In this document: piece after piece, positions 8,556 through 37,984 of the stretch | Position numbering within the stretch: position 1 is the first letter of the stretch | How the letters are laid out: each line of letters begins with the position of its first letter | Assembly (NCBI GenBank): GCA_037481655.1 | Contig: JBBFLF010000010.1 | Location: 1-64,000, forward strand | DNA: 64,000 nt | Direction of reading: 5' to 3' | Source: Desulfobaccales bacterium | GTDB lineage: Bacteria; Desulfobacterota; Desulfobaccia; Desulfobaccales; 0-14-0-80-60-11 | Position numbers and translations under genes: made by a program | The notes under the pieces: generated by a model | What the model saw: only the letters and a program-made list of their open reading frames with translations | Databases searched by the model: none | Told to the model about the DNA's origin: nothing

Positions 8556-10445
8556 TTATTGATGAGGTTTTGCCGACTCTGGGTGCTCATTCAGCAGGCG
8601 GCGCAGTTCCTCACCTTCAAGGACCTCTTTCTCCAGGAGGTGTTGGGCCACCCGCTCCAGGACCTCCCGCTTCTCCGTGAGGATCTCCTTGGCCCGCTGG
8701 TAGGCCCGCTCCACCAAGGCCCGCACCTCGGCGTCAATCTCCTGGGCCGTAGCCTCGCTGTAATCCCGGGGCGCGGTGGGCATGATGCCCTCCAGAAACA
8801 GGGGCCGCCGCTCCCGCTCGAAGGTGAGCGGCCCCAGCTTCTCGCTCATGCCGTACTCCCGCACCATGGAGCGGGCGATGTCCGTGGCCCGGTAAAGATC
8901 GTTGTGGGCTCCGGTGGAGATCTCCTCAAACTTAAGCTCTTCGGCCACCCGGCCCCCCAGCATCACCGCCATGCGGGCCTCCAGCTCGGATTTGGTCATG
9001 AGGTAGCGGTCCTCGGTGGGGAGCTGCATGGTATAGCCCAGAGCACCGATGCCCCGGGGGATGATGGAGACCCGGTGCACCGGGTCCACCAGGGGCTGCA
9101 GGGCCTCGGCCACCAAGGCGTGGCCGGACTCATGGTAAGCCACGATCTCCTTCTCCCGGGGGTTCATCATGCGGTTTCTTTTCTCCAGGCCCGCCACCAC
9201 CCGGTCGATGGCCTCCTCAAAGTCGCTCATCTCCACCGCGGCCTTGTTTTTGCGGGCCGCCAGGAGCGCCGCCTCGTTGACGATGTTGGCCAGATCCGAG
9301 CCCACCATGCCGGGGGTACGGGCCGCCAGCTTGGCCAGGTCCACATCCGGGGCCAGCTTGACGTTACGGGTGTGGATGCGCAGGATGTCCTCCCGGCCCT
9401 TGAGGCTGGGGCGGTCCACCAGGATGTGGCGATCGAAGCGCCCCGGGCGGATGAGGGCCGGGTCCAGGATCTCCGGCCGGTTGGTGGCCGCCATGATAAT
9501 GACGCCCTTTCTCGTGTCGAAGCCGTCCATCTCCGAGAGGAGCTGGTTCAGGGTGTTCTCCCGCTCCTCGTGGCCCGCCAGGGGGCTTAAGCCCCTGGCC
9601 TTGCCGATGGCGTCCAGCTCGTCAATGAAGATGATGCAAGGGGCCTTCTCCTGGGCCTGCTGGAAGAGGTCCCGCACCCGGGCGGCTCCCACGCCCACGA
9701 ACATCTCCACGAAATCGGAGCCGGTGAGGCTCATGAAGGGCACCCCGGCCTCGCCGGCCACGGCCCGGGCCAAAAGCGTTTTCCCCGTGCCCGGCGGGCC
9801 CACCAGGAGCACGCCCTTGGGGATCTTGCCGCCCAGGGTCTGGAATTTGCCCGGGTTTTTCAGGAACTCGATGATCTCCTTGAGCTCCTCTTCGGCCTCC
9901 TCCACCCCGGCCACGTCGTTGAAGGTCACCTTGACCTCGTCTTCCATGTAGACCTTGGCCCGGCTCTTCCCCACGCTCATGAGGCCCCCGGCACCGGCGC
10001 CGAGACGCTGGAAGAAGTAGATCCAGATGGCCACCAGGACCAGCATGGGCAGCAGCCAGGAGAGGAGCTGGGTCACCCAGGTGCGCTCAGGGATTGCCCG
10101 GTATTTGATGCCCTGCTTGTCCAGCCGGTCCACCAGGTCCCGGTCCTCCAGCTTGACGGTGGAAAAGCGCAGCTCCGGGCCGAAGGACTCCTTCAGGCGC
10201 TTGGCCAGCTCCGGCTCCTGGCGCTCTTTGGCCAGAAACTCCACCCCCGGCTCCAGCAGGCGGCCGGAGATGAGCTCGGCACTGATGTCCAGGTCGTCCA
10301 CGCCCTTGATCTCCACCAGACGCCGGAATTCGCTGTAGTTGATGGGCACGGCCCGGCGGCCGGGAAAGTAGCTCTGGAGCACGAGGAACAGGAGCAGAAA
10401 GGCAAGGAAATACCACAGGGTCCAGCGAAGGGCGTTGGGCTGCAT
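8556..10445 (-). CDS. ftsH: ATP-dependent zinc metalloprotease FtsH
   Basis: A 629-residue membrane AAA protease. Segment [20 protein letters not shown] near the N-terminus and another at [19 protein letters not shown] bracket a periplasmic domain. Walker A (GPPGTGKT) is near residue 218, Walker B reads [11 protein letters not shown], the second region of homology is in [20 protein letters not shown], and the zinc site HESGH is near residue 438. It degrades misfolded membrane proteins and regulatory substrates. The ATG at 10445 is chosen because a longer open frame upstream merely translates the palindromic repeat at 10554-10687. A good promoter lies at 10486-10514. After the stop is a GC hairpin (about 8521-8541) without a T run. 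Confidence 0.95.
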
Positions 10446-10485
10446 GCGGGCCTCGTGTGCGAAAAATAAGCTCAGTGTCTGTCTC

Positions 10486-10514
10486 AGTATAAGAAAGGCA
10501 CACCCACTTAGCAA
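10486..10514 (-). promoter_or_regulatory. Probable sigma-70 promoter for ftsH
   Basis: Read on the minus strand: -35 TTGCTA (10509-10514), 17-base spacer, -10 TATACT (10486-10491). The start codon of ftsH at 10445 lies about 35 bases downstream of the expected transcription start. Seen directly; not tested. Confidence 0.6.
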
Positions 10515-10553
10515 GTGAACCCGGCCCGCCCCCGTGGTATGATGCGGGGGATT

Positions 10554-10687
10554 GTGGGAGAGGGGGCCAGGGAGCGTGGCCCCCTGCCCCCTCTCCCACA
10601 CCCTCTCCCCCAACCCCTTAACAGGGGGCTGGGAGGGGAGTTTGAGGGGAGGGCGGGGGAGCCGCTGCTCCCCCGGTCCTCCCCTCA
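10554..10687. repeat. Intergenic palindromic repeat, copy 1 (modules A-B-C)
   Basis: Full-length copy of the window's main repeat. Module A is a hairpin from 10554 to 10599 (GTGGGAGAGGGGG pairing with CCCCCTCTCCCAC). Module B is the CCCTCTCCCCCAACCCCTTA / GGGGCTGGGAGGGGAG arch. Module C is a hairpin from 10643 to 10687 (TGAGGGGAGG... pairing with ...CCTCCCCTCA). It sits between the divergent ftsH and SIMPL genes. Confidence 0.85.
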
Positions 10688-10735
10688 CAGACTACTTGTC
10701 AGACGAGGCAAACTTGCGGCAAGGAGGTCAACCCG

Positions 10736-11473
10736 GTGAGAGTAATTCATTCTTCCGTGATTCTGGCAATCTGGCTCATGATCTGGCTGCCCGGCAATGC
10801 TTGGGCGCAGAAAGCCGCGGCGGAGGTCGCCACCGCCGAGGTGGAGGCCGAAGGCGAGGTCTATGCCAAGCCGGACCAGGCAGTGCTCCTCTTTCACCTG
10901 GAGACCGAGGCGGCCACCGCCCAGGAGGCGGCCGGGGCCAACACCCGCCTCTCCGAGGGCTTCCTCAAGGCCTTGAAGACCCTGCTGGGGCCCGAGGAGA
11001 GCCTGAAGAGTGTCAGCTACCAGGTCTTTCCCGTATACCAGCAGGTGGAAAGGGGCCAGGGGCCAAAGAAGGTGCAGACCCAGGAAGTGCAGGGCTACCG
11101 GGTGCGCCATGCCTTTGAGGTGAAATTGAAAGACCTTAGCCGGCTGGGAAAGATCCTGGATGCCGGAGTGGAGCATGGGGCCACCCGGGTGCGGGGCCCT
11201 TTTTACGAACACTCCCGCTTGGAGGAGCTCCAAAAGCAGGCCGCCGCCACCGCCCTGACCCGGGCCCGGCACCTGGCAGAGGCCCTGGCCAAGGCGGAGG
11301 GCCTCAAGGTGCGGCGTCTGAAGGTGGTGTCCACCATGGCAATGCCCCGGCCCTTCCGGCCGGCGGCGGCGGAGATGCGGATGATGGCCGCCCCGGCCCC
11401 GGAGACGCAGGTGGAGGTGGGCGAAGAGCGGATCCAGACCCGGGTGCGAGCGATCTTTGAGCTCAGCCCCTGA
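10736..11473 (+). CDS. SIMPL (DUF541) domain periplasmic protein
   Basis: A 245-residue secreted protein. The start is GTG at 10736 with AAGGAGG 7 bases upstream. The signal peptide covers roughly residues 1-25 and ends AWA-Q. The body matches SIMPL/DUF541: VEAEGEVYAKPDQAVLLFHLE, a middle KDLSRLGKILDAGVEHGATRV and a helix rich in ALTRARHLAEALAKAEGLKV. The family is widespread in bacterial envelopes, with oligomeric, stress-related roles that are poorly defined. Nfu follows 84 bases downstream on the same strand. Confidence 0.85.
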   Translation: MRVIHSSVILAIWLMIWLPGNAWAQKAAAEVATAEVEAEGEVYAKPDQAVLLFHLETEAATAQEAAGANTRLSEGFLKALKTLLGPEESLKSVSYQVFPVYQQVERGQGPKKVQTQEVQGYRVRHAFEVKLKDLSRLGKILDAGVEHGATRVRGPFYEHSRLEELQKQAAATALTRARHLAEALAKAEGLKVRRLKVVSTMAMPRPFRPAAAEMRMMAAPAPETQVEVGEERIQTRVRAIFELSP

Positions 11474-11557
11474 ATCCGGGGAGATTTTTCACTCCTGAAC
11501 TTTACAAAGACCCGGGAGATGGTTACAAATTAAACAATCATCTCTGGGAGGCATTCT

Positions 11558-11791
11558 GTGGAAGACGTGATCAAACGCGGGGTTGAAATGGCCATCGCCA
11601 AAATCCGGCCCTTTCTGCAGCGGGACGGCGGCGATATCGAACTGGTGGACGTGAGCGACGGCATCGTCAAGGTGCGCCTCACCGGCGCCTGCAAAGGCTG
11701 CCCCATGAGCCAGATGACCCTGAAGCAGGGCGTGGAAAAGGCCATCATGCGGGAAGTGCCGGGCGTGACGGAAGTCCAGGCGGTGATGTAA
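11558..11791 (+). CDS. Nfu/NifU C-terminal-domain iron-sulfur scaffold
   Basis: A 77-residue stand-alone Nfu domain. The start is GTG at 11558 with GGGAGG 6 bases before it. The CxxC that binds the transferable 4Fe-4S cluster is at Cys45 and Cys48 (GACKGCPMS), in the usual context IRPFLQRDGGDIELV before it and VEKAIMREVPGVTEV after it. It would carry Fe-S clusters to apoproteins, which is plausible in a genome with many ferredoxin-type enzymes. A repeat copy and a strong terminator follow. Confidence 0.92.
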   Translation: MEDVIKRGVEMAIAKIRPFLQRDGGDIELVDVSDGIVKVRLTGACKGCPMSQMTLKQGVEKAIMREVPGVTEVQAVM

Positions 11792-11800
11792 TCTTGTTAT

Positions 11801-11869
11801 GGGAGAGGGGGCCAGGGGTCACGGACCCCTGCCCCCTCTCCCAGACCCTCTCCCCCAACCCCCTGAAGA
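11801..11869. repeat. Intergenic palindromic repeat, copy 2 (modules A-B)
   Basis: Module A hairpin at 11801-11842 (GGGAGAGGGGG... with ...CCCCCTCTCCC) followed by the CCCTCTCCCCCAACCCC half of module B; module C is missing. It lies 9 bases after the nfu stop codon. Confidence 0.8.
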
Positions 11870-11902
11870 GGTTTTTTGTTTCCCTTAAATTCCAGCCCTA
11901 TC

Positions 11903-11943
11903 GGCCGCAGGGTGCCACACCGATGGCGCCTGCGGCCTTTCTT
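11903..11943 (+). terminator. Rho-independent terminator after nfu
   Basis: GGCCGCAGG-GTGCCA pairs with TGGCGCC-TGCGGCC (one bulge, six-base loop) and is followed directly by TTTCTT. On the plus strand it would end the SIMPL-nfu transcript before the convergent HAD gene. Confidence 0.75.
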
Positions 11944-11989
11944 ATGGGGACCTGCTCACGACCGCGCTTCCCCCCTCAGCCAACCGGGC

Positions 11990-12589
11990 TCATTCCCCGA
12001 ACAGCAGGGCGGCCAGCTCCGGCCAGCTCGTGACCTCCGGGAAGGGATGGGGCCGGCGGTTCCAGGGCTGGGCAAAGACGATGGGGGTGATACCGGCCCG
12101 GGCCAGCTCAAAGCAGGTCTCCAGGCGGTCCTCCACGAAATACTCGATGGCGTGGGTGTGCAGATAGCGCACCTTGGCCTCCGGGTCGCCGGCGGCCATG
12201 ACCCAGATGTCCCGGGGCGGCACCCCGGCCAGGGTGCGGTTGAGCCAGAGCTGGATGGGCTCGGCCCGGTCCCGGGCGGTGACAAAGAGCAGGGGCGCCT
12301 CCTGGGCCAGGCGGGTGAGAACCTCCACCGCCTCAGGCAGAGGCTGGATGGGCAGTTCGTGCGGCCGGTCAATGAGCTCCCGGATGAGGCGGCGGATGAG
12401 GGGCGGCGGCAGGTCGAGACAGTCCTCCAGATGAAAGGTGGTGATGTCCGCCAGGGTGAAGGGATGCGGGCCGTGATGCTCCCGGGCCAGCTCCAGGAAG
12501 GTGGTCATGATGTCCGCCACCACCCCGTCGATGTCAAACCCCAGCCGCTCCCGGGGCAGGCCGTTTTTGGGAGGCCACGCCGGCTTCAC
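11990..12589 (-). CDS. HAD-superfamily hydrolase, 5'-nucleotidase (NT5C)-like
   Basis: A 199-residue protein with the HAD motif I DIDG (Asp19 and Asp21 in GFDIDGVVAD), motif II in LLFVTARDR and a late acidic motif in EYFVEDRLET. This resembles the small deoxyribonucleotidase-like branch that removes phosphate from nucleotides or sugar phosphates. The GTG start overlaps the stop of the upstream phosphoribosyltransferase (GTGA), so it is the last gene of a four-gene overlapping cassette. Substrate unknown. Confidence 0.8.
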   Translation of the reverse strand: MKPAWPPKNGLPRERLGFDIDGVVADIMTTFLELAREHHGPHPFTLADITTFHLEDCLDLPPPLIRRLIRELIDRPHELPIQPLPEAVEVLTRLAQEAPLLFVTARDRAEPIQLWLNRTLAGVPPRDIWVMAAGDPEAKVRYLHTHAIEYFVEDRLETCFELARAGITPIVFAQPWNRRPHPFPEVTSWPELAALLFGE

Positions 12590-25746: not shown

Positions 25747-26811
25747 TTGGCCATGACCATCTTGGTTTCCATGCGAAGCGCCCTCCTTGTTGCCCTGCTG
25801 GCCGGGGTTCTGGGGGGCTGCGGCACCGCCGCCACCGGAGTGCCGCCCTCGGCCCTGGTGGCCCAGGTAGAAAGCGACAGCCGCACCCGGCAGCAGCTGC
25901 AGCAGCAGCTTCTGGCCCAGGCCGGAGCGGTGGCCCCGCCGAACCGCCGGGACTATGAAGTGGGGCCCGAAGACCTCCTGGAGGTGGTGGTCTTCGGCCA
26001 GGACAACCTGAACCGCACCGTCCGGGTCACCGGCGACGGCAAGATCAGCCTGCCCCTGGTGGGAGAAGTGCAGGTGGCCGGACAGACCCCCCAGGCCATC
26101 GAGAAGCGGCTGGCCGCCACCTACGGCTCCCAGTATCTGCGCCATCCCCAGATCACCGTGTCGGTCAAGGAATTCCGGCACCAGCGGGTGGCCATCACCG
26201 GCGCGGTGGACAAGCCCGGCACTTATGAGATGATCGGCCCCCGCACCCTGCTGGAGATGCTGGCCCTGGCCGGCGGCCTCCAGGACAAGCCCGGTGCCGC
26301 CAAGGCCGGGGATGTGGTGCACATCATCCGCCGCCATGACGCCCGGGAGGACCGGGGCACCGCCAAGTCCTTCTCCCCCCGGGCCGAGACCATCGTGGTG
26401 GATCTGAAGCGCCTGCTGGCTGGCGAGGCCTCCCTTAATGTGCCCATCCGCCACGGCGACGTCATCCACGTGCCCTTCGCCGGCAGTGCCTACGTGCTGG
26501 GGGGCGTCCGCCGGCCGGGGAGCGTCACCGTGAAAGACAACCTCACCGTAAGCCAGGCGGTGGCCCTGGCCGGGGGCCTGGACCCCCTGTTGGCCACCTC
26601 CAAAGTGAGCGTCACCCGGCGGGATGAGCAGGGGAACGCCATCCAGCTGGCCGCAGATCTGAAGCGCATCCTCAACCGCCAGGAGGAGGACATCCCCCTG
26701 AAGGACAATGACGTGGTGGTGGTGGGAGAGAGCGCCCTGCGCAAGGGCCTGTTTATCTTCAAGGAACTGCTTCCTGGAACCTATAGTGGCGCCTATCGGT
26801 TCGCCAACTGA
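25747..26811 (+). CDS. Wza-type polysaccharide export lipoprotein
   Basis: A roughly 350-residue outer-membrane export protein. The lipobox LGGC is followed by a glutamine-rich helix, the Poly_export domain (YEVGPEDLLEVVVFGQDNLN, GKISLPLVGEVQVAGQTP) and two SLBB-like domains (VAITGAVDKPGTYEMIGPRT, AYVLGGVRRPGSVTVKDNLT). It would form the outer-membrane channel for exopolysaccharide. The start could be TTG 25747 (GAGGGGG 6 bases before it), ATG 25753 or ATG 25771. First gene of the surface-polysaccharide operon. Confidence 0.9.
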   Translation: MAMTILVSMRSALLVALLAGVLGGCGTAATGVPPSALVAQVESDSRTRQQLQQQLLAQAGAVAPPNRRDYEVGPEDLLEVVVFGQDNLNRTVRVTGDGKISLPLVGEVQVAGQTPQAIEKRLAATYGSQYLRHPQITVSVKEFRHQRVAITGAVDKPGTYEMIGPRTLLEMLALAGGLQDKPGAAKAGDVVHIIRRHDAREDRGTAKSFSPRAETIVVDLKRLLAGEASLNVPIRHGDVIHVPFAGSAYVLGGVRRPGSVTVKDNLTVSQAVALAGGLDPLLATSKVSVTRRDEQGNAIQLAADLKRILNRQEEDIPLKDNDVVVVGESALRKGLFIFKELLPGTYSGAYRFAN

Positions 26812-26869
26812 TCCGGTTCCGGGGCCCAACGCCTAACTTCCAGGCATGACACCTGCAGAGGAAAGACCG

Positions 26870-29161
26870 ATGTTACAGGATAACCGCTCCCCCATGGTGA
26901 TCCCTGGTCCCGGCACCCCGCCGGCCCGGGAGGTGGAATACTACGCCGACTACTTTCCCGGAGAGTCCCTCACCACCCGGGACTATCTGGGCATCCTGTG
27001 GACCCGCAAAAGGTGGTTGTTAGGCACTCTGGTCGGGCTCCTCCTCCTCACCTTGCTCTTCTGCCTGGTGGTCACCCCGGTCTATCGGGCCAGCACCGTC
27101 ATCCAGATCACCCAGGACAATCCGGGGGCCCGGCTGGGGGATTCCGACGCCTTAAGCACCATTCAGGGAGGCTCGGAGCTGAGCAAGTTCCAGGAGACCC
27201 AGAACAAGATCCTGGCCAGCCGGGCCCTGGCCTGGCGCCTCATCGAATCCCTCAACCTGGCCGAGCACCCCGATTTTCACTCGGTGAGCAAGCAAGAGGG
27301 TCTCCCGCCGGAAAAACTCAAAAACGACCTCATCGACCTGTTCCTGAAAAAGCTGGAGATCAAGCCCATCAAGGACTCCTTCCTGGTGGAGGTCTCCTTT
27401 CTGTCCAGCGATCAGTCTCTGGCCCAGAAGGTGGCCAACGCCCTGCCCAAGGAATATGTCCAGCTGGCCATCGACAGCCGCAGCCAGTCCTTCGTGATGG
27501 TGCGGGAGTGGCTGGAGAAGCAACTGGAGCAGATGGGCCAGCGTCTCCAGGCCTCCACCCGCAAGCTCTTTGACTACAGCCGCAAGGCGGACATCTTCGT
27601 CATGGAGGATCTGGGGGGCAAGGACACGGTCCTGTTCCAGAAATACGTGGAGCTGGGAGGCCTGCTCACCAAGGCCCAGTCGGAGCGGCTGGCCAAGGAA
27701 GCCATCTACCGTCAGCTCAAGGAGAAGGGCCCCGACGCCTCCCCCATCACCAACCATCCCCTCATCGCCAGTCTGCGCCAGGAATATGTGGCCCAAAACG
27801 CCAAAGTGGCCAGCCTGGCCCGCATCTATCTCCCCGGCCACCCGGAGATGCAGGCCGAGACCGCCAAGCTCAACGAACTGAGTAGCCGCCTCACCGCGGA
27901 GGTGAAGCGTCTGCAGGAGAGCGCCCGGGCCGATTATGAGGCGGCCAGTCGGGCCGAAAAGCTCCTCAGCGAGGCCTTCGAGACCCACAAACAGCAGCTG
28001 GCCCACCTCCAGGACAGCCTCATTGACTTTCAGATGCTGAAGCGGGACACCCAGACCACCGAGAAACTCTACCAGGCCCTGTTATCCCGCATGGGGGAGG
28101 CCACGGTGGCCAGCACCATGGTGGCCAGCAACGTGGCGGTCATTGACCCGGCGGACCTGCCGGCGGAACCCCATTTCCCCAAAACCCTCCTCTTCCTGGC
28201 CCTGGCCGGGGTCATCGGCCTGGGAGGCGGCATCGGCGCCGCCTTCCTGGCGGAATACCTGGACGACACCCTGAAGACCTCGGAGGAGGCCGAGCGCATC
28301 TGCCAGACGCCCACCCTGGGGGTGATTCCCGCAGCCACCCCGGAGAAAGCCCTCCCGGGTCCGGATCTCAAGGACCGCCTCCTGGCCCATATCCGCATCT
28401 TTCGCAGCCCCTTTGGGGAACAGGGGGAAAAGGAAGAGGGTCAGGCCGATCTCATCGTGGTGGAGCAGCCCCGCTCGCCCATCAGCGAGGCGGTGCGCCA
28501 TCTGCGCACCTCCCTGATGCTGTCGGCCTCCGGGCAGCCCCCCCGGACTTTGGTCATCACCAGTCCCAACCCCCGGGAGGGCAAGTCCGTCATCTCTTTG
28601 AACTTGGCAGCCTCCCTGGCCCAGGGACAGCGGCGGACCATTCTTTTGGACTGCGACCTGAGGCGGCCCCGGCTGCATCAGGCCTTCAAGCTGCCCTCCC
28701 AGCCAGGCCTCACCAATTACCTCACCGGCAGCGCCACCCCAGAGGAGATCATCCTTCCCACCTCGGTGGAGAACCTCTGGTTCGTGCCGGCAGGCCCGGT
28801 GCCCCCCAATCCCGCGGAACTGCTGGATTCCCCTCGTTTCCGCACCTTCCTGGCCCAGTTGCAGCAGGAATACCACCACATCCTGCTGGACACCCCGCCG
28901 GTCCTGGGGTTCAGTGACGCCCGGGTCTTGGCCGCGCTGGCGGACGGGGTCCTGTTGGTGGTCAAGTATCAGGGCACCACCCGGGATTCCGGGCGCCTGG
29001 CCCGGCAGCTCTTCGCCCAGGTCCGGGCTCCCCTCCTGGGTCTGGTGCTCAACCAGGTGAATCTCAATGGCCACGGTCGGAATGGTTATTATGGACAGTA
29101 TTATTACGACCGGTTTTACGGCGACTCCCCTGAAGAAACCCGGGCCTCTGATGGCCTCTGA
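26870..29161 (+). CDS. Wzc-type polysaccharide co-polymerase / tyrosine autokinase
   Basis: A 763-residue inner-membrane BY-kinase. The first membrane helix is at about residues 50-69, then a long periplasmic coiled-coil region, a second helix near 438-460 and a cytoplasmic kinase: Walker A SPNPREGKS near 567-576, Walker A' ILLDCDLRRPR, Walker B HILLDTPPV. The C-terminal tyrosine cluster (NGYYGQYYYDRFYG) is the autophosphorylation tail. It controls chain length and export with Wza. The ATG at 26870 is chosen because AGAGGAAAG precedes it; an ATG at 26846 lacks a ribosome site. Confidence 0.92.
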   Translation: MLQDNRSPMVIPGPGTPPAREVEYYADYFPGESLTTRDYLGILWTRKRWLLGTLVGLLLLTLLFCLVVTPVYRASTVIQITQDNPGARLGDSDALSTIQGGSELSKFQETQNKILASRALAWRLIESLNLAEHPDFHSVSKQEGLPPEKLKNDLIDLFLKKLEIKPIKDSFLVEVSFLSSDQSLAQKVANALPKEYVQLAIDSRSQSFVMVREWLEKQLEQMGQRLQASTRKLFDYSRKADIFVMEDLGGKDTVLFQKYVELGGLLTKAQSERLAKEAIYRQLKEKGPDASPITNHPLIASLRQEYVAQNAKVASLARIYLPGHPEMQAETAKLNELSSRLTAEVKRLQESARADYEAASRAEKLLSEAFETHKQQLAHLQDSLIDFQMLKRDTQTTEKLYQALLSRMGEATVASTMVASNVAVIDPADLPAEPHFPKTLLFLALAGVIGLGGGIGAAFLAEYLDDTLKTSEEAERICQTPTLGVIPAATPEKALPGPDLKDRLLAHIRIFRSPFGEQGEKEEGQADLIVVEQPRSPISEAVRHLRTSLMLSASGQPPRTLVITSPNPREGKSVISLNLAASLAQGQRRTILLDCDLRRPRLHQAFKLPSQPGLTNYLTGSATPEEIILPTSVENLWFVPAGPVPPNPAELLDSPRFRTFLAQLQQEYHHILLDTPPVLGFSDARVLAALADGVLLVVKYQGTTRDSGRLARQLFAQVRAPLLGLVLNQVNLNGHGRNGYYGQYYYDRFYGDSPEETRASDGL

Positions 29162-29232
29162 GGAGAAGCTGCCGGAGGGACAAAAAGAGCGAACATCCAC
29201 GCGACACCCCGCAGGGACGAGCAGGTGGAGTC

Positions 29233-30363
29233 ATGAAAGAGCATTTTGCCCACAAGACCATCCTCATTACCGGCGCCGCCGGTTCGGTGGGGCAGGAACT
29301 GGTGCGCCAGCTCCTGGCCCTGGAGCCGGCGGAGATCCGGGCCATGGACAACAACGAAACCGAGCTCTTCCACCTCCGGGAGACCTATGCCGCCTGCGGC
29401 CGCCTCACCGCCTACCTGGGGGATGTGCGGGACGGACGCAAACTGGAGAATCTCTGCCATGGCGTGGATCTTATCTTCCACGTGGCGGCCTACAAGCATG
29501 TCACCCTGTCGGAATACAACCCCTTTGACGTGGTCCAGACCAATATTCTGGGGGTGAAAAACGTCATCCAGGCGGCCTTGGCCCACAAAGTCCCCCGGGT
29601 GATCTTCACCAGCTCCGACAAGGCGGTGAACCCCACCAATGTCATGGGCACTTCCAAGCTCATGGGGGAGCGCCTCATGACCGCCGCCAACATCGTCACC
29701 CCCAACGGCCGCCAGGTCTTCTCCAGCGTCCGTTTCGGCAATGTCATCGGCTCCCGGGGGTCGGTGGTGCCCATCTTTGCGGAGCAGATCCGCCGGGGCC
29801 AGCCGGTGACGGTGACCGATGTCCACATGACTCGTTTCTTCATGACCTTACCGGAAGCGGCCCGCCTGGTCCTGGAGGCCGCGGTGCTGGCCTGCGGCGG
29901 CGAGGTCCTGGTCACCAAGATGCCGGTGATACGCATCCTGGATCTGGCCCAGGCCATGATCGAGCTTCTGGCCCCGGTGTATGGCTATGACCCCGATGAC
30001 CTGGAGATCCGCTTCATCGGCGCCCGCTCCGGCGAAAAGCTCTACGAGGAGCTCATGAGCCAGGAGGAGACCGGCCGGGCGGTGGAGCTGGAGAAGATGT
30101 TCGTCATCCTGCCGGCCATGCGCAGCTTTTACCAGAAGATCGACTACTCCTATCCGGGAGAGGTCTTCCCCCGAGGGGTGCCCCGGGCCTACGTCTCCTC
30201 CCGGGAAAAGCCGATGACCGTGGAGCAGATCAAGAATTATTTGCGGGAAAACGGAGTGTTGCCGGAGGTGACGCGGGAGGTCTCTCCCTGGCCGTTGCCT
30301 TCCCGCCGGGAGGTTCCGCCCCTCCAGATCCTTCCGGCCATGCGGGCCTCAGGCAGGGGGTGA
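29233..30363 (+). CDS. capD: CapD/WbpM-type UDP-sugar 4,6-dehydratase, soluble form
   Basis: A 376-residue short-chain dehydrogenase corresponding to the catalytic half of CapD/WbpM, without the N-terminal membrane helices. The NAD motif TGAAGSVG is at residues 13-20. The catalytic pair is Met138-x3-Lys142 (NPTNVMGTSKLMGE), Met replacing Tyr as in this family, and IGARSGEKLYEELM follows. It should turn UDP-GlcNAc into a 4-keto-6-deoxy sugar, the first step to sugars such as FucNAc or QuiNAc. Only 3 bases separate it from the next gene. Confidence 0.88.
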   Translation: MKEHFAHKTILITGAAGSVGQELVRQLLALEPAEIRAMDNNETELFHLRETYAACGRLTAYLGDVRDGRKLENLCHGVDLIFHVAAYKHVTLSEYNPFDVVQTNILGVKNVIQAALAHKVPRVIFTSSDKAVNPTNVMGTSKLMGERLMTAANIVTPNGRQVFSSVRFGNVIGSRGSVVPIFAEQIRRGQPVTVTDVHMTRFFMTLPEAARLVLEAAVLACGGEVLVTKMPVIRILDLAQAMIELLAPVYGYDPDDLEIRFIGARSGEKLYEELMSQEETGRAVELEKMFVILPAMRSFYQKIDYSYPGEVFPRGVPRAYVSSREKPMTVEQIKNYLRENGVLPEVTREVSPWPLPSRREVPPLQILPAMRASGRG

Positions 30364-30366
30364 GCC

Positions 30367-31572
30367 ATGCGGATTCTGGTGTTAGGCGGGGACGGCTATC
30401 TGGGGTGGCCCACGGCCATGCATCTTTCCGCCGCCGGCCACGAGGTCATGGTGGTGGACAACTACTTCCGGCGGCACATCTGCACTGCCCTTAATTGCGA
30501 GCCTCTGGTGCCGGTGCCCAACTTGCATCAGCGGGCCGAGCTCTGGCGGGCCCACTCCGGTCTCACCATTCAAGTGGCGGTGGGGGACGTGTGCGATTAC
30601 CCCTTCCTCTCCCGGGTCTTTCAGGACTTCGGGCCGGAGGGGGTGGTGCACTACGCCGAGCAGCCCTCGGCCCCGTACTCCATGCGGGACCGGGAGAGCG
30701 CCCTCTTCACCCTGACCAACAACCTGGTGTCCACCCTGAACCTCATCCACGCGGTGGCGGAATTCCAGCCGGACTGTCACATCGTCAAGCTGGGGACCAT
30801 GGGCGTGTATGGCACCCCCAACATCGACATCGAAGAAGGCTATCTGGAGGTGGAATACAAAGGCCGCCGGCACACCTTCCTCTATCCCAAGACGCCCGGC
30901 TCCCTCTACCACCTCACCAAATCCCAGGACGGGGACATGCTTTATTTCTACGCCCGCATGTGGAACCTGAGGGTCACGGACCTCAACCAGGGGCCGGTCT
31001 ACGGGCTGAGCGCCGGTCTGGAGGAAGGGGAGGAGCGCCTGGCCACCATCTTCAATTACGATGACGTCTTCGGCACGGTGCTGAACCGCTTCCTGGTGCA
31101 GGCGGTGGCGGGCTTTCCCCTCACGGTGTATGGGCGGGGCGGCCAGACCCGGGGCTATCTGCACCTGAAAGATACCCTGGCCTGCATCACCCTGGCCCTC
31201 ACGCAGCCCGCCGCGCCAGGGCAATACCGGGTCTTCAATCAGTTTGTGGAGACCTTCACCGTCCTGGAGCTGGCCCAGCGGGTCCAGGAGGCCGCCCAGG
31301 AGCTGGGGGTGGAGGTGACTATTCGGCGCCTTCCCAATCCCCGCCAGGAGGCAGAGGAGCATTACTACAATCCGGCCCACACCGGCCTCCTCTCTCTGGG
31401 TCTCCAGCCCCACTACCTGACCCGGGAGGTGCTGGTGGAGATGCTGCAGATGGTCCGGCGCCACCGGGAGAGGATCCGGCCGGAGTATATCCTGCCCCGC
31501 ATCACCTGGCAGCCGAGACGCCCGGTGGCTACGGCGGAGCCCCAGCCGCTTCGGCTGGTCACCAATCTCTAA
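30367..31572 (+). CDS. sqdB: UDP-sulfoquinovose synthase (SqdB/SQD1-like)
   Basis: A 401-residue extended short-chain dehydrogenase that closely follows plant SQD1 and cyanobacterial SqdB along its whole length: LGGDGYLGWPTAMHLS at the N-terminus, HYAEQPSAPYSMRDR, KLGTMGVYGTPNIDIEEG, DLNQGPVYG, DYDDVFGT-like NYDDVFGTVLNRF, VYGRGGQTRGYLHLKD, NPRQEAEEHYYNPAHTGL. The catalytic Thr144, Tyr181 and Lys185 match SQD1 Thr145, Tyr182, Lys186. The reaction joins sulfite to UDP-glucose, giving UDP-sulfoquinovose. No SQDG synthase (SqdX/SqdD) is in the window, and the setting is an exopolysaccharide operon, so the sugar probably enters a surface glycan (inference). Confidence 0.87.
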   Translation: MRILVLGGDGYLGWPTAMHLSAAGHEVMVVDNYFRRHICTALNCEPLVPVPNLHQRAELWRAHSGLTIQVAVGDVCDYPFLSRVFQDFGPEGVVHYAEQPSAPYSMRDRESALFTLTNNLVSTLNLIHAVAEFQPDCHIVKLGTMGVYGTPNIDIEEGYLEVEYKGRRHTFLYPKTPGSLYHLTKSQDGDMLYFYARMWNLRVTDLNQGPVYGLSAGLEEGEERLATIFNYDDVFGTVLNRFLVQAVAGFPLTVYGRGGQTRGYLHLKDTLACITLALTQPAAPGQYRVFNQFVETFTVLELAQRVQEAAQELGVEVTIRRLPNPRQEAEEHYYNPAHTGLLSLGLQPHYLTREVLVEMLQMVRRHRERIRPEYILPRITWQPRRPVATAEPQPLRLVTNL

Positions 31573-31584
31573 GGAGAATATGCC

Positions 31585-32259
31585 ATGAACCCCAATGGTC
31601 TAGAAGAAAAGATCCGGCTGAGCCGGGAAGTCCTGGAGGAGGCCCTCGCCCGTTTCGAGGGCGCTATCGCCCTGGCCTGGACCGGGGGCAAGGACTCCAC
31701 CACCATCCTACACCTGCTCAAGGAGATCGGCGGCGGGCGGGTGCCCATCCCGGTGCTGAACATCGACACCAGCGTCAAGTTCCCGGAGATCTATGCCTTC
31801 CGGGACCGGCTGGCCCGGGAATGGGAGCTCAACCTCATCATTGCCCGTAACGAGGAGGCCATTCGCACCATCCGCATCGCCGCCGACCAGGAGGAGTGCT
31901 GCACCCTGCTCAAGACCCAGGTGATTGCCCGGGCCGTCGCGGACCACGGCTGGCAGGCCCTCATCACCGGCATGCGCTGGGACGAGCAGCCCGACCGGCG
32001 CCAGGAGGCTTACTTTGCCCCGCGCCCCAACCCCGAACACGTCCGGGTCCACCCCATTTTGCATTTCACCGAGCTGGACATCTGGGCCTACCAGAAAACT
32101 CATGACGTGCCTTTCTGTTCCCTTTATCGCCAGGGTTACCGCAGCCTGGGCTGCGCCCCCTGCACCCAACGGGGTGTTGCCGGCGGGGCCGAACGGGCGG
32201 GCCGCAACCCCAAAAAAGAAGAGATCATGAAACGCCTCAGGGCCATGGGATATTTTTAG
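31585..32259 (+). CDS. PAPS/APS reductase-like enzyme with Fe-S cysteines
   Basis: A 224-residue PP-loop protein of the PAPS reductase/CysD superfamily. The nucleotide loop is TGGKDST (residues 33-39). A CC pair (Cys105-106 in EECCTLLK) and CxxC (Cys190, Cys193 in LGCAPC) match the 4Fe-4S ligands of assimilatory APS reductases, and RVHPILHFTELDIWAYQ plus RAGRNPKKEEIMKRLRAMGY are typical of an archaeal and bacterial branch. It starts 12 bases after sqdB with AAGGAG. The obvious role would be to make sulfite from APS or PAPS for SqdB (inference). A CysD-like adenylyltransferase role is less likely because of the cysteines. Confidence 0.8.
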   Translation: MNPNGLEEKIRLSREVLEEALARFEGAIALAWTGGKDSTTILHLLKEIGGGRVPIPVLNIDTSVKFPEIYAFRDRLAREWELNLIIARNEEAIRTIRIAADQEECCTLLKTQVIARAVADHGWQALITGMRWDEQPDRRQEAYFAPRPNPEHVRVHPILHFTELDIWAYQKTHDVPFCSLYRQGYRSLGCAPCTQRGVAGGAERAGRNPKKEEIMKRLRAMGYF

Positions 32260-33735
32260 ATGGCGCCCTCTCCCCTGTTACGCACCCTGGCGGCGGACTC
32301 CCTGCTGGTATTGGCGGTCAAGGTTCTCAGTCTGCCGCTGGGGTATTATTCCCTGATCCTCCTGGCCCGCTATTATGGGGCCGAGGCCCTGGGCACCTAT
32401 ACCCTCGGGGTCTATCTTCTCTCTACCCTGGCGGTCATCTGCCGCCTGGGCTTGGATACCGGCATCCTGCGCTTCTTTGCCGCCTGGGGTCCGGAGACCG
32501 GCCGGCAGCGGCTCCTGGGCCTGCTGCTCCCGGCCTTGGGGCTGGTAGGCGGCTTGGGGGCCGCAGCCGGTGGTGGACTCTGGCTCACCGGCCCCTGGCT
32601 GGCCGGCCGGTTCCAGGCGCCTGAGCTCCCCATCCTGCTGCCTTGGCTGGCCCTGCTGCTGCCTCTCACCGCCGCGGTGGGGGTCGGTGCCGAAGCCTTG
32701 CGGGCCCTGCAGGGGCCGCGGTGGGTGGTTCTGAGCCATGACGGGGTCTTCCCTTTGTTCTTTCTGATTATGATCTGCGCCCTGGCGGGGAAGCCGGGAG
32801 CCCAGGCCGTGGCCAGCCTGGGGCTGGCGCTCTGCCTCAGCCACCTGGCCGCCGGCTCCCTCATCGTGGCCCGGCTTCTGGGAGGTTTGCGCCAGCGTCC
32901 CGGAGGGCCAGGCCAGGGGCGCCACTTCGGAGCTTTGCTCAGCTATAGCACTCCCCTGTTCCTCAGCGCCCTGGTGTGGCTGGCCTTCGGTTCCCTGGAC
33001 AGCCTGCTCTTGGGGTGGTTTCAGCCGCCGGCCCAGGTGGCCTACTTTGAGGCCGCCAACAAGACCGCCCTGTTGGTGAGCCTGCCCCTTATCGCCATCA
33101 ACGCGGTGCTGCCGCCCCTCTTCAGCCGCCTGCATCAGCAAGGGGACCACCGCCAGCTGGAGGATCTCGGTCGGGCCGCCTCCCGCTGGACCTACTACCT
33201 GGCCCTGCCTTTGACCCTGGGATGCCTTCTCCTCGCACCCCGCCTGCTGGCCTGGTTCGGAGCAGGCTTCGAGGCCGGAGCCCTGGCGCTTAGGCTCCTG
33301 GCCCTGGCGCAGTTGGTGAACGTGGCCTGCGGCTCAGTGGGGTTTCTTTTGGCCATGACCGGGCACCAGGTGGCTCTGACCCGCCTCCTGGCCCTGGCGG
33401 CCGTGGGGGGCCTGCCCTTGCTGGCTCTGGGAGCCGCCGTGGGGGGACTCACCGGCTTGGCCGTTGCCAAGGCCCTTTGGCTGGCGGGGGTCAATCTGGC
33501 GATGACTTGGGCGGCCTATCGCCGTCTGGGACTGACCATCTTCGCCCGGGACCTTTTCCCGGCCCATCTGGGAGGCGCGGTGGCCGCCGGCATCTTCAGT
33601 CTGTTTCTGAACCCCCTGGGACCTGTGGCCGCCTCCCTGCTCTTCGGCCTTGCCTATCTAGGCCTCACCGCCCGACCGGTCCTTCAGGAAATGAGCCTGT
33701 TATTTCAGACGCCTCTCAAGGAGGGGACCTCATGA
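32260..33735 (+). CDS. Wzx-type oligosaccharide flippase (MOP superfamily)
   Basis: A 491-residue very hydrophobic protein with about 14 membrane segments. Residues near the start (VKVLSLPLGYYSLILLARYY, EALGTYTLGVYLLS) and the middle (YFEAANKTALLVSLPLIAINAVLPPLFSRLHQ) are typical of Wzx/PST flippases. It would turn over the lipid-linked repeat unit. The start codon abuts the previous stop, and its stop overlaps the next start by 4 bases (ATGA). No Wzy polymerase is recognisable in the window. Confidence 0.88.
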   Translation: MAPSPLLRTLAADSLLVLAVKVLSLPLGYYSLILLARYYGAEALGTYTLGVYLLSTLAVICRLGLDTGILRFFAAWGPETGRQRLLGLLLPALGLVGGLGAAAGGGLWLTGPWLAGRFQAPELPILLPWLALLLPLTAAVGVGAEALRALQGPRWVVLSHDGVFPLFFLIMICALAGKPGAQAVASLGLALCLSHLAAGSLIVARLLGGLRQRPGGPGQGRHFGALLSYSTPLFLSALVWLAFGSLDSLLLGWFQPPAQVAYFEAANKTALLVSLPLIAINAVLPPLFSRLHQQGDHRQLEDLGRAASRWTYYLALPLTLGCLLLAPRLLAWFGAGFEAGALALRLLALAQLVNVACGSVGFLLAMTGHQVALTRLLALAAVGGLPLLALGAAVGGLTGLAVAKALWLAGVNLAMTWAAYRRLGLTIFARDLFPAHLGGAVAAGIFSLFLNPLGPVAASLLFGLAYLGLTARPVLQEMSLLFQTPLKEGTS

Positions 33736-35285
33736 CTCTTGCGGGCCCGCCCCATATTGTCCTCATCGTCCTGGACACCACCGGCGCCGGGCATCTGTCC
33801 CTTTACGGCTATTCCCGGCCCACCACGCCCCAGATGGTTCGCCTGGCTACGGAGTGCCGGGTCTACACCCGCTGCTATGCCCCGGGATGCTGGACCGTGC
33901 CTTCCCATGCCTCCATGTTCACCGGTCTCTATCCCGGCCAGCATGGTGCCTGTGAGGGCAATTTCCTGATCGGGGATAACCTCCAGCACCTTACCGCGGT
34001 GCTCAAGATGGCCGGCTACCGCACTCTGGGTATTTCCTCCAACGGTCTGGTAAGTCCTGCCACCGGCCTGTGCGGCGCCTTTGACGACTTCGTCGATTTC
34101 GGCCGCCACGATCTCCATCGGTTTTTCCATAACCTTACCGGGGAGGCCCGAAAAGACCCCGGCGAGCTGGGCCGCCGGCTGAAACAGGCGGTGACCCTGA
34201 AAGAGGCGGTGGCCCTCGCCGTGGCCTACCTGAGAGAAACCGGCGGGGCGGCGCAGCTCAGCCGCACCGCCTGGCAACTGGCCCGGCGGCTGCTCCGGGA
34301 TTTTTGGCACCCCAGCCCGGTGGCCAAGTCCGCCGGCTATACCGAAAAGACCTTGGCCTGGGTCCGCCGCACCCTTCGCCGCCTCGCCCGGGAGCCGGAG
34401 CAGCCCTTCTTTCTGTTCATCAACCTCATGGAGGCCCACCAGACCTACCGCCCTCCCCTGCGCTGGCGACGCTTCTCCCGCTGGCAGGACCGGGCCTGGG
34501 TGGACCCCCAGCGTTTCTACCGCCGGCCGCAGAATTCCGACACGGCGCAGCTGGTGGAGACGTACCGCAACCTCTATGATGACGAAATCCTCTATCAGGA
34601 TGACGTTCTGGGCCGGTTGTGGGAGACCCTGCGCCAGTCCCCCGCCTTTGAGAATACCGTGGTCATCGTCACCTCGGACCACGGCGAGCACCTGGGCGAA
34701 AAGGGGCATTACACCCACATCCTCTCCCTTTACAACGAACTGCTCTGGGTGCCCCTCATCATTCGCTATCCCCGGGGCTGGGCGGCGCCGGGGACGGATG
34801 ATCGCCTGGTGTCTCTGACCGACCTTTACGCCACGCTGCTTGACCTGGTGGGCAGCCCCCTGCCCCGCCCGGCCACGTCCCATTCCCTCCTGGAGCCCCC
34901 CTCCCGGACCACCGCCGTGGCCCAGCTCCTCTACCCGGAGATGTGGCTCACCCAGTGGCAACATCGGGCCCGGCAGGCCGCCGTGGCCCGGGAGACCTTC
35001 TCCCCTTCCCGGTTTGCCGTCTTTCTGGACAATGGCCTCAAAATTCTGGAGCGCTGGGACGGGGAGCTGGAAATCTATGACCTGAAAAAAGATCCCGCGG
35101 AACAGAACGACCTCCGGCCCCGGCTGACCCCGGAGGCCCTGGCGGAGTTCCGGGCCCTGGTGGCTTTGCACCAGGAGGAGACCGGGTTCTGGACTCGGCG
35201 CCGGGAGATTCTCCAGCTTCGGGGGCTGGCGGCGCCGGAGGCGTCCCTGGAGGCCCAGCCATGTGCGGTATATTCGGCCGCATAA
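33732..35285 (+). CDS. Sulfatase-like alkaline-phosphatase-superfamily enzyme with Thr nucleophile position
   Basis: A 517-residue protein of the sulfatase/phosphodiesterase fold: HIVLIVLDTTGAGHLSLYGY (metal Asp15), the nucleophile region CWTVPSHASMFTGLYPG, VIVTSDHGEHLGEKGHYTH (metal Asp and His) and a C-terminal YDLKKDPAEQNDL. The sulfatase signature C/S-x-P-S-R reads T-V-P-S-H here (Thr55, His59), so formylglycine cannot form. A Thr nucleophile is used by phosphoethanolamine transferases and related enzymes of this superfamily. It may hydrolyse or transfer a phospho- or sulfo-group on the glycan. It overlaps asnB by 25 bases. Confidence 0.83.
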   Translation: MTLAGPPHIVLIVLDTTGAGHLSLYGYSRPTTPQMVRLATECRVYTRCYAPGCWTVPSHASMFTGLYPGQHGACEGNFLIGDNLQHLTAVLKMAGYRTLGISSNGLVSPATGLCGAFDDFVDFGRHDLHRFFHNLTGEARKDPGELGRRLKQAVTLKEAVALAVAYLRETGGAAQLSRTAWQLARRLLRDFWHPSPVAKSAGYTEKTLAWVRRTLRRLAREPEQPFFLFINLMEAHQTYRPPLRWRRFSRWQDRAWVDPQRFYRRPQNSDTAQLVETYRNLYDDEILYQDDVLGRLWETLRQSPAFENTVVIVTSDHGEHLGEKGHYTHILSLYNELLWVPLIIRYPRGWAAPGTDDRLVSLTDLYATLLDLVGSPLPRPATSHSLLEPPSRTTAVAQLLYPEMWLTQWQHRARQAAVARETFSPSRFAVFLDNGLKILERWDGELEIYDLKKDPAEQNDLRPRLTPEALAEFRALVALHQEETGFWTRRREILQLRGLAAPEASLEAQPCAVYSAA

Positions 35286-37195
35286 ATTCCCCTGGGGCCG
35301 GGCCGGTACCCGCTGAGCTCTGCCGGCGCCAGACCGACACCCTGCGGCATCGGGGGCCGGATGCGGGCGGGTATCTGTGGGCCTGCTCCCGCACCGGGGC
35401 GGTTTATCTGGGCCGGGAAGGTGACGGACTTGCGCCCCCCTCTCAGCCCTGGGACCTCTTTCTGGGGCACCGGCGGCTTTCCGTGCTGGACCTGTCCGAG
35501 GCCGCGTCCCAGCCCATGGCGGCGGCCCAGGGGCGCTACTGGATTATCTTCAACGGCGAAATCTACAATTACCGGGACCTGCGGCGGCAACTGGCCGCGG
35601 AAGGCATCATCTTTCGCACCGCCAACTCCGACACCGAGGTGCTGCTCCAGGCCTTCGTGCGCTGGGGGGAGGACTGCCTGCAGCGGCTTCGGGGAATGTT
35701 CGCCTTCGCCATCCTGGACCTCAAGGAGCGCCGCCTCTTTCTGGCCCGGGACCGGCTGGGGAAAAAGCCCCTGTACTACTATGCCACTTCCCGGGGGCTG
35801 CAGTTTGCCTCCGAGCTCAAGGCCATCCTGGCGGACCCGGCGGTGCCCCGGGAGCTGGATCCGGTGGCCCTGGGACAATACTTGCTCTACGGTTATGTCC
35901 CTTCCCCCCGCACCATCTACCGTGGTCTGGCCAAACTGCCTCCTGCCCATCTGGCCTGGGTGGACCTGGACCGGCCGGGTGATATGCGGCTCCGGCGCTA
36001 CTGGCAGCCGGCCGCGGCCGAACCTGAGGAGTCCGTGGGGGCCTGGCAGGAGGAGTTTGAAGCGGAGCTTACGGAGGCAGTGCGCCTGCGCCTGGTGAGC
36101 GATGTGCCCTTGGGGGCCTTCTCGTCGGGGGGCCTGGATTCCACCGTGGTGGTGCGGGAGATGCACCGCCTGGGCGCCGGGCCGCTTCGCACCTTTGCCA
36201 TCGGTTTTCCGGAAGCCGAGGCCAGCGAACTTCCCTGGGCCAGGCAGGTGACGGCCCGCTATCACACCGAGCACACGGAAGAGGTGGTGAGCCCTGATGC
36301 CCTGGCGCTTCTCCCCCAGGTGGTGCGTCAGTTTGACGAGCCCTTCGCCGACTCCTCAGTCATCCCCACCTGGATCGTGTCCCGTCTGGCCCGGCGCCAG
36401 GTGACCGTGGTCCTGTCCGGTGACGGCGGGGATGAAATCCTGGCGGGCTATCGCCGCTACCATCACGCCTGCCGCCTGGAACACTGGTGGGGCCCGGTGC
36501 CGGCATGGCTGCGGCGCCCTCTTATGGGCCTGCTGGCCGTGGCTTGGCCCGCCCGGCTCCGGGGGAAGAGTTTTTGGCAGCGGGCCGCCGGCGGCGACAA
36601 CCTTTACCGGGCCATTGTCTCCCGGGATCACAGCCTTAGCCTCCTGCGGCCGGAGGTGCGGCCGTCCCCGGCAGACCTGCCGGCCCTTCATCATCATTTC
36701 ACCGCTGCCTGGGAAGCCGGCCCCCGGGATTTTCTCACCCGCCTCCAATATGTGGACCTCCTCACCTATCTGCCGGAGGATATCCTGGTCAAGGCCGACC
36801 GGGCCTCCATGGCGGCTTCCCTGGAGCTGCGCTGTCCGTTGTTGGACCACCGGCTGGTGGAGCTCGCCCTGAGGCTGCCCCGGGCCCTGAAATACGACGG
36901 CCAGCGGCAGAAAGTTCTCATCCGGCGCCTCCTCACCGCAGATCTGGGACCGGAATTTGTGGAGCGGCCCAAAAATGGCTTCCAGATGCCCCTGCGCCGC
37001 TGGCTCAAAGGGGATATGGCCACCATTTTACAAGGGCGCCTTCTGCCTGCTGATGCCCCCCTGTATCACCTCTGCCGGCGGGAGGCGGTGGCGGCGTTGC
37101 TCGGCCGCTTTTTGGGGGGTCAGAAAGATCTCAGCGAGGACGTCTGGCGCCTGCTGGTCCTGGACGAATGGTGCCGGCAGGCCTTGGAGGGTTAA
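35261..37195 (+). CDS. asnB: Glutamine-hydrolysing asparagine synthase family protein
   Basis: A 644-residue AsnB-type amidotransferase. Cys2 (MCGIFG) starts the glutaminase domain, with LRHRGPDAGGY, FNGEIYNYRDLR and GMFAFAILD; the synthetase domain has the PP-loop FSSGGLDST near residues 287-294 and LSGDGGDEILAGYRRY. Copies inside polysaccharide operons are thought to amidate sugar acids or act on glycan precursors rather than make free asparagine; which applies here cannot be told. The gene starts inside the previous one and the next gene follows by 3 bases. Confidence 0.9.
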   Translation: MCGIFGRINSPGAGPVPAELCRRQTDTLRHRGPDAGGYLWACSRTGAVYLGREGDGLAPPSQPWDLFLGHRRLSVLDLSEAASQPMAAAQGRYWIIFNGEIYNYRDLRRQLAAEGIIFRTANSDTEVLLQAFVRWGEDCLQRLRGMFAFAILDLKERRLFLARDRLGKKPLYYYATSRGLQFASELKAILADPAVPRELDPVALGQYLLYGYVPSPRTIYRGLAKLPPAHLAWVDLDRPGDMRLRRYWQPAAAEPEESVGAWQEEFEAELTEAVRLRLVSDVPLGAFSSGGLDSTVVVREMHRLGAGPLRTFAIGFPEAEASELPWARQVTARYHTEHTEEVVSPDALALLPQVVRQFDEPFADSSVIPTWIVSRLARRQVTVVLSGDGGDEILAGYRRYHHACRLEHWWGPVPAWLRRPLMGLLAVAWPARLRGKSFWQRAAGGDNLYRAIVSRDHSLSLLRPEVRPSPADLPALHHHFTAAWEAGPRDFLTRLQYVDLLTYLPEDILVKADRASMAASLELRCPLLDHRLVELALRLPRALKYDGQRQKVLIRRLLTADLGPEFVERPKNGFQMPLRRWLKGDMATILQGRLLPADAPLYHLCRREAVAALLGRFLGGQKDLSEDVWRLLVLDEWCRQALEG

Positions 37196-37198
37196 GGG

Positions 37199-37984
37199 AT
37201 GCGGAAACTTGCCCGACTTGTGCCGCGCCTGTACGGACGGATTTGCGGTCAGGAGCTCAGTGCCAACCTGCTCCACTTCCAGTTCCTGCCCTCTCACTAT
37301 TTCCGGCGGCACCTCCAGGCCGACGCCCATCGGCTTAAGGGGCGGCTTTTGGATGTGGGGTGCGGCAACCAGCCCTACCGGCCGCATCTCCCCCAAGTCA
37401 CTCGCTATGTGGGGCTGGATTACCCGGTGACCCAGGCCCTGCAGGATTTCCAGGCTCGCCCGGAGGTTTACGGCGATGCCCGGTGCCTGCCCTTTGCCGA
37501 CGGCAGTTTCGATGCGGTCTTATGTTCCCAGGTCCTGGAGCATGTCAATCAGCCGGCCACGGTCTTAAAGGAAATCTCCCGGGTCCTGAAGCCCGGCGGC
37601 ACCGGTATCCTCTCGGTCCCCTTCATCTACAACGTGCACGTGGGCCCTTATGACTTCTTCCGTTTTTCCCCCTTCGGCCTGAAGGAGTTGCTGGCCCAGG
37701 CGGACCTGGAAGTGGAGACCCTGCGCTATCAGGGCGGGGTGGGCACCGCGGTGGTGCAGCTGGTGCACAACTGGGTCTTTTCCGGGCTGGCCCGCCTCAG
37801 CCGCCGGAGTGCCCTGGGAGCTGCTCTGGGAGGCCTGCTCCTTCCCCTTCTCCTCATCTGGTGCGCCCTGAACAACCTGGCGGCCCTGGCGCTGGACCGC
37901 CTGGACATTGACACCCCCCGCTTTTCCCCCAACCTCTGGGTGGTCTTCCGGAAAGCCGCCAGCCCGGCCGGCGCAGCCGCCTAA
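37199..37984 (+). CDS. Class I SAM-dependent methyltransferase
   Basis: A 261-residue Methyltransf_11-type enzyme. Motif I LLDVGCGNQPYRP is near residue 50, motif II follows (DARCLPFADGSFDAVLCSQVLEHV), then LKPGGTGILSVPFIYNVH. A C-terminal hydrophobic stretch (GLLLPLLLIWCALNNLAALAL) may attach it to the membrane. It is the last gene of the exopolysaccharide operon, probably methylating the glycan or a lipid-linked precursor (inference). Confidence 0.86.
   Translation: MRKLARLVPRLYGRICGQELSANLLHFQFLPSHYFRRHLQADAHRLKGRLLDVGCGNQPYRPHLPQVTRYVGLDYPVTQALQDFQARPEVYGDARCLPFADGSFDAVLCSQVLEHVNQPATVLKEISRVLKPGGTGILSVPFIYNVHVGPYDFFRFSPFGLKELLAQADLEVETLRYQGGVGTAVVQLVHNWVFSGLARLSRRSALGAALGGLLLPLLLIWCALNNLAALALDRLDIDTPRFSPNLWVVFRKAASPAGAAA

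Follow-up and report, generated by a model that had tools for sequence, protein, structure and literature searches.

Sulfoquinovose is found in the N-glycans of Sulfolobus acidocaldarius, where it is provided by the Agl3 pathway (PMC4388408). Enzymes of the SQD1/Agl3 type carry a catalytic T/YxxxK set and a [ST]MG fingerprint and, when sulfite is missing, they behave as 5,6-dehydratases (PMC8987622). In Agl3, Arg101 is essential and the R101A mutant is inactive (PMC4388408). On the side of sulfate assimilation, the canonical CysH reductase possesses a C-terminal ECG[LI]H motif which holds the catalytic cysteine and forms the thiosulfonate, and the CasCysH proteins of type IV-B CRISPR systems are CysH-like and devoid of this cysteine, another role having been proposed for them (PMC8175902).

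The window is a stretch of 64,000 nucleotides (G000:C10:1-64000) from a 2.87 Mb genome of the Desulfobacterota. The original prediction placed in it a UDP-sulfoquinovose synthase followed by a dedicated Fe-S APS/PAPS reductase that would make sulfite locally for the synthase, both serving an exported polysaccharide.

The operon and the SqdB-like enzyme

The SqdB-like ORF (30367..31572; 401 aa) and the PP-loop ORF (31585..32259; 224 aa) are on the + strand and separated by 12 bases. Their positions (30367-32259), this gap, the residues T144, Y181 and K185 of the first protein and C105, C106, C190 and C193 of the second were all as predicted. Both genes belong to an unbroken series of + strand genes extending from 25753 to 37984. 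The series begins with a Wza/EpsE-type polysaccharide export lipoprotein (25753..26811; PF02563 and SLBB, TIGR03028 141 bits) and a Wzc-type chain-length determinant and tyrosine autokinase (26870..29161; TIGR01005 288 bits, TIGR01007 above its cut-off). A FlaA1/WbpM-like nucleotide-sugar 4,6-dehydratase (Polysacc_synt_2) with the SSDKAVNPTNVMGTSK motif follows (29233..30363; PF02719 335 bits) and its gene is located 3 bases 5' of the SqdB-like gene. Downstream of the PP-loop gene come a Wzx-like flippase (32260..33735; PF13440/PF01943), an alkaline-phosphatase (AP)-superfamily protein (33732..35285; PF00884 157 bits, codon-scored start), an asparagine-synthase-type amidotransferase of exopolysaccharide clusters (35261..37195; TIGR01536 above its cut-off, TIGR03108 556 bits) and a SAM-dependent methyltransferase (37199..37984; PF08241). 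The profile matches bear out the expected Wza, Wzc and Wzx genes around the pair, and the presence of the three together identifies a Wzx-type exopolysaccharide operon. The FlaA1-like gene and the AP-superfamily gene, the latter 3' of Wzx, did not appear in the original prediction. No glycosyltransferase gene was recognized in the operon 25753-37984, despite Wza, Wzc, Wzx and the sugar-modifying enzymes, and no Rfam match was obtained between 20000 and 42000.

Comparison with Arabidopsis SQD1 revealed a match of 451 bits over residues 2-382, with about 50% identity, and the next PDB family reached 50 bits. The predicted likeness to SQD1 along the whole protein is in agreement with these values, and the phylogeny placed the protein in the SQD1/SqdB family, outside the epimerase clade. 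In the tree, the clade of the window enzyme comprises 34 sequences (support 1.0), with a subclade of 30 members (support 0.995). The catalytic T144, Y181 and K185 and the TMG fingerprint are present, corresponding to the T/YxxxK and [ST]MG signature. Against the UDP-sulfoquinovose synthase profile NF041015, the protein scored 440.6 bits, under the curated cut-off of 575. Homologues were detected in 14 of the 29 genomes of the order and in 37 of the 395 genomes of the phylum, none of them above this cut-off.

Two positions known from Agl3 differ in the window enzyme. Pro100 occupies the position of Agl3 Arg101, where no arginine is thus present, and the proline is found throughout the clade: most homologues of the phylum, including this one, read EQPSAP whereas SQD1, Agl3 and the Sinorhizobium meliloti homologue read EQR[SA]AP. 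As proline also occurs at this position in homologues outside the clade, including haloarchaeal ones, it is not decisive alone. The other position, Glu147, important in Agl3, is a valine here. A loss of activity due to this change was considered and rejected, since the S. meliloti SqdB homologue has valine too. Given the proline in place of the essential arginine, UDP-sulfoquinovose is a plausible but only putative product of the enzyme. The absence of a recognisable SQDG synthase beside the SqdB-like gene in the operon held true. A search of the source genome with the glycosyltransferase adjoining S. meliloti sqdB gave no match; confined to that enzyme and run without a positive control, it is silent on SQDG.

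The upstream dehydratase and the source of sulfite

In 24 of the 30 subclade members, a FlaA1-like gene (in one case cut off by the contig end) was found upstream of SqdB on the same strand, nearly always at 45 bases or less. The motif SSDKAVNPT[NST]VMG[TA]SK is found in these upstream genes, and the SDK...Mx3K pattern of the FlaA1-like protein is close to the WbpM/PglF type when compared with the table in PMC8987622. Loci combining a FlaA1-like gene and a Pro-type SqdB gene are distributed across the phylum (window 29233-31572; L122, L124, L127-L134, L136, L137 and others). The conserved association of SqdB is the one with the upstream FlaA1/WbpM-like dehydratase and not with the downstream PP-loop gene. 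No description of this dehydratase-SqdB unit was found in the open-licence literature.

The source genome encodes its own dissimilatory AprA (934 bits; G000:C8) and Sat. Beside them are genes which we take to be AprB and Qmo-like genes, named from their sequences by eye. Sat, AprBA and the Qmo-like genes make APS and sulfite central intermediates in the cytosol of the source organism, and the local making of sulfite for SqdB that had been put forward is needless, the Sat-AprBA route already giving cytosolic sulfite. AprA is present in 30 of the 37 SqdB-bearing genomes and in 133 of the 358 genomes without SqdB (odds ratio 7.3, p = 3e-7; p about 1e-4 to 3e-4 at family level), a co-occurrence that is confounded by phylogeny. 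It favours sulfite as the nucleophile of the SqdB-like enzyme.

The enzyme might instead add no sulfite and act as a 5,6- or 4,6-dehydratase, or use another nucleophile, it and the FlaA1-like enzyme working on the same sugar in succession. The replacement of Arg101 by proline fixed in the clade, the score below the synthase cut-off, the pairing with a dehydratase and the lack of AprA in 7 of the 37 SqdB-bearing genomes are consistent with such a role, as is the 5,6-dehydratase behaviour of SQD1-type enzymes deprived of sulfite (PMC8987622). The conserved TMG...YxxxK fingerprint of SQD1/Agl3, the identity to SQD1, the enrichment in genomes making cytosolic sulfite and the occurrence of proline in out-of-clade homologues, haloarchaeal ones included, argue against it, and we regard it as a serious but clearly less probable explanation.

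The PP-loop protein and its genomic neighbours

The PP-loop protein belongs to PF01507 (142 bits). Compared with the sequences of the PDB, it scored best with CysD (1zun_A, E 9e-23), ahead of the APS/PAPS reductases. The cysteines C105, C106, C190 and C193 are kept in all close relatives, together with the [TS]GGKDS PP-loop (TGGKDS in the window protein) and the ERxGR...LR.xGY tail. With the PF01507 domain, these cysteines form the CC...CxxC ligand pattern of APS-type reductases, suggesting that the protein carries an Fe-S cluster. The catalytic cysteine of the reductases could not be found, as no cysteine follows C193 and no member of the clade has one at the C-terminus. The tail, ERAGR...LRAMGYF, matches that of CysD (ERQGRVIDRDQ...KKRQGYF), and the GKDS PP-loop and ERxGR...GYF combination is that of CysD. 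In the tree, the protein grouped with CysD and not with CysH, with moderate supports (0.86 and 0.82). These features set the protein apart from the known types of APS/PAPS reductase, and the predicted dedicated reductase is not supported. Because it remains below the CysD cut-offs (NF003587, 141 versus 195 bits; TIGR02039, 107 versus 397 bits) and lacks a CysN GTPase partner, it is described as CysD-like and not filed as CysD. The best CysN candidate of the source genome reached 107.7 bits, within the elongation-factor range and under the cut-off of 336.1, and the best APS kinase candidate 21.5 bits for a cut-off of 138.7, so that this genome is without the partners that a sulfation pathway normally has.

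An AlphaFold2 model of the PP-loop protein (pLDDT 85.5) was used for a fold search. The APS/PAPS reductases were retrieved with Z 20-23 (22-23 for APS reductases) and CysD with Z 21.6, the latter with the lowest rmsd of these and 33% identity. Reductases and CysD ranked about equally, and the fold comparison was rejected as a way to separate CysD from CysH. The model also matched the TtuA and NcsA folds. The PP-loop protein could accordingly be compared with Fe-S PP-loop enzymes such as TtuA, NcsA and DndC, which would make it a sulfur-inserting enzyme, or one adenylating a group other than sulfate, its place in a polysaccharide cluster reflecting a thio- or other modification. These predicted fold matches, and the other roles proposed for CysH-like proteins without the catalytic cysteine, e.g. 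CasCysH (PMC8175902), are in line with this explanation. CysD proteins are nevertheless the closest sequence relatives, and distant members of the family lie beside CysN-like GTPases or APS kinase at several loci, a neighbourhood that points to sulfate activation. We hold the sulfur-insertion or other-adenylation explanation to be rather unlikely.

The neighbourhoods of the PP-loop gene were also compared. Among the sampled genomes of the phylum, it adjoins SqdB in this genus only. It occurs in SqdB-less genomes of the order (G016, G019, G020 and G027) and, where both genes exist outside the genus (G005, G006, G012 and G160), they are on different contigs. A second copy in the source genome, 69% identical and on another contig (L025 62-3487, G000:C28), is placed beside two AP-superfamily genes at the contig end, with no SqdB in sight. 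The genome G006 has the order Wza-Wzc-FlaA1-like-SqdB-Wzx-AsnB-methyltransferase without a PP-loop or AP gene, and G020 has Wza-Wzc-PP-loop-Wzx-AP without a FlaA1-like or SqdB gene; the window combines the gene sets seen apart in these two genomes. At 24 of the 35 PP-loop loci, a gene of the AP superfamily (PF00884 or PF01663) was found no more than 4.5 kb away; among the 44 SqdB loci lacking a PP-loop gene, this held for 1. The p value of 7e-11 exaggerates this contrast, since the loci share ancestry and some of these neighbours had gone into the profiles. The dedicated synthase-reductase pair is thus not sustained by the neighbourhoods, the usual neighbour of the PP-loop gene being an AP-superfamily gene. 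No description of the link between the CysD-like and AP-superfamily proteins was found in the open-licence literature.

Adjacent sqdB and reductase genes, for which a genome search had been proposed, were encountered in another group: true SqdB-CysH neighbours exist on Rhodobacterales plasmids, and in the sampled phylum the pair of the window type was not found beyond the genus. On a Pelagovum pacificum plasmid (L144 8001-9907), an SqdB homologue is followed 20 bases on by a true CysH with ECGIH, and on a plasmid of Rhodobacteraceae M382 (L145 7001-10764), one sulfotransferase gene separates the SqdB homologue from a true CysH (ECGIH). From these sequences, the SqdB-reductase logic of the original prediction may exist in nature elsewhere, with an Arg-type SqdB. 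For the window, the PP-loop protein as an Fe-S APS (or PAPS) reductase making sulfite beside SqdB, perhaps with the thiol of another protein, agrees with the conserved APR-type cysteines, with the APS reductase matches of the model and with these plasmid neighbours. The clade-wide lack of the catalytic cysteine, the CysD-type tail, the restriction of the SqdB adjacency to one genus, with the genes found apart elsewhere, and the sulfite already yielded by AprBA make this role improbable.

Several distant loci were recorded besides. Distant members of the PP-loop family adjoin CysN-like GTPases or, in L082, APS kinase. In the latter (9182-12019, G021:C1), an APS kinase, a divergent PP-loop protein without CC/CxxC and a PF01663 gene are consecutive. 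L047, L051, L053 and others share a recurrent grouping, in which a CysD-like protein bearing APR-type cysteines is accompanied by a CysN-like GTPase and by a phosphodiesterase-family gene (PF01663); it spans Desulfobacterota, Acidobacteriota and Bathyarchaeota. A few long CysN genes in Acidobacteria loci, considered as possible CysN-CysC fusions, were judged to be overlong frames due to ORF calling and were excluded. In L176 (7316-10496, G085:C19), a CysD-like protein with extra cysteines is beside CysN-like and LarE-like genes, with genes for a cysteine synthase and a sulfite-reductase-like protein nearby; this is possibly an assimilatory operon without CysH.

The AP-superfamily protein of the window and six relatives have a threonine at the nucleophile position (WTVPSH) according to the nucleophile alignment. 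Threonine is the usual nucleophile among phosphotransferase-type members of the superfamily. The formylglycine sulfatases of PF00884 are recognized by Cys/Ser in C/S-x-P-x-R; having threonine instead, the protein is not one of them. The start assigned by codon scoring lies directly at the first strand of the fold, which makes a cytosolic location probable. A transfer of sulfate from APS by this protein is put forward as a hypothesis only.

Proposed scheme and comparison with known systems

The explanation that we prefer, about which we are evenly divided, is that two functionally distinct, separable modules adjoin each other in one exopolysaccharide operon of a sulfate-reducing member of the Desulfobacterota. 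The first, made of the FlaA1/WbpM-like dehydratase and the Pro-type SqdB-like enzyme, would most likely yield a 6-sulfo sugar activated with UDP, either UDP-sulfoquinovose or something closely related to it. The sulfite would be supplied by the dissimilatory Sat-Apr pathway of the cell itself, and the sugar would enter a glycan exported via Wzx/Wzc/Wza. In the second, made of the PP-loop and AP-superfamily proteins, the former would be an adenylylating enzyme resembling CysD and holding an Fe-S site, the group that it activates probably being sulfate (or another one), and the latter would move the activated group onto, or off, the glycan. Sulfate activation or sulfation by the second module is less certain than the sulfonated sugar of the first. 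The proline at the Arg101 site, the SqdB score below the cut-off, the seven AprA-less genomes, the moderate support for the CysD grouping, the near-equal fold ranking of reductases and CysD, the shared ancestry of the loci behind the AP association and the use of some of their neighbours in its profiles, and the missing CysN and APS kinase count against the scheme as a whole.

A more daring proposal is that sulfate reducers give an exported polysaccharide two sulfur groups: a C-sulfonate, from the FlaA1-like and Pro-type SqdB enzymes adding sulfite to a sugar other than glucose, and a PAPS-free O-sulfate, from the Fe-S CysD-like protein and a cytosolic Thr-nucleophile AP-superfamily transferase using APS, both drawn from energy metabolism. 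We give it little credence.

If the two-module scheme is true, two intermediates of dissimilatory sulfate reduction, sulfite and APS, would feed the making of sulfur-containing polysaccharides on the surface of anaerobic bacteria, which could be a non-phototroph source of sulfonates in anoxic sediments. Both the dehydratase-SqdB unit and the recurring link between CysD-like Fe-S and AP-superfamily proteins (Desulfobacterota, Acidobacteriota, Bathyarchaeota) can be tested directly and would alter the reading of the annotations 'PAPS reductase' and 'sulfatase' in polysaccharide clusters.

Compared with the described systems, the window enzyme shares with SQD1, SqdB and Agl3 full-length homology, the catalytic T-Y-K, the TMG fingerprint and the GGDGYxGW motif. 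It differs from them by EQP in place of EQR, by its score under the NF041015 cut-off and by its location in a Wzx operon, where a FlaA1-like dehydratase is its partner and no SQDG glycosyltransferase lies alongside. As in the Agl3 pathway, an SqdB-type enzyme would serve a surface glycan and not SQDG, but here in a bacterial Wzx/Wzc operon, in a sulfate reducer and with a Pro-type enzyme. The PP-loop protein resembles the assimilatory APS reductase CysH (2goy, 7lhr) by the PF01507 fold and the CC and CxxC pattern, and departs from it by the lack of the C-terminal catalytic cysteine, the TGGKDS PP-loop and the CysD-type C-terminus. With CysD (1zun_A), it has in common the GKDS PP-loop, the ERxGR...GYF tail and the best PDB sequence match, whereas it is shorter, has APR-type cysteines that CysD lacks and belongs to a genome without CysN. 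Finally, the Rhodobacterales plasmid pairs present the same succession of an SqdB family gene closely trailed by a PF01507 gene; in contrast to the window, they have an ECGIH reductase and an Arg-type SqdB.
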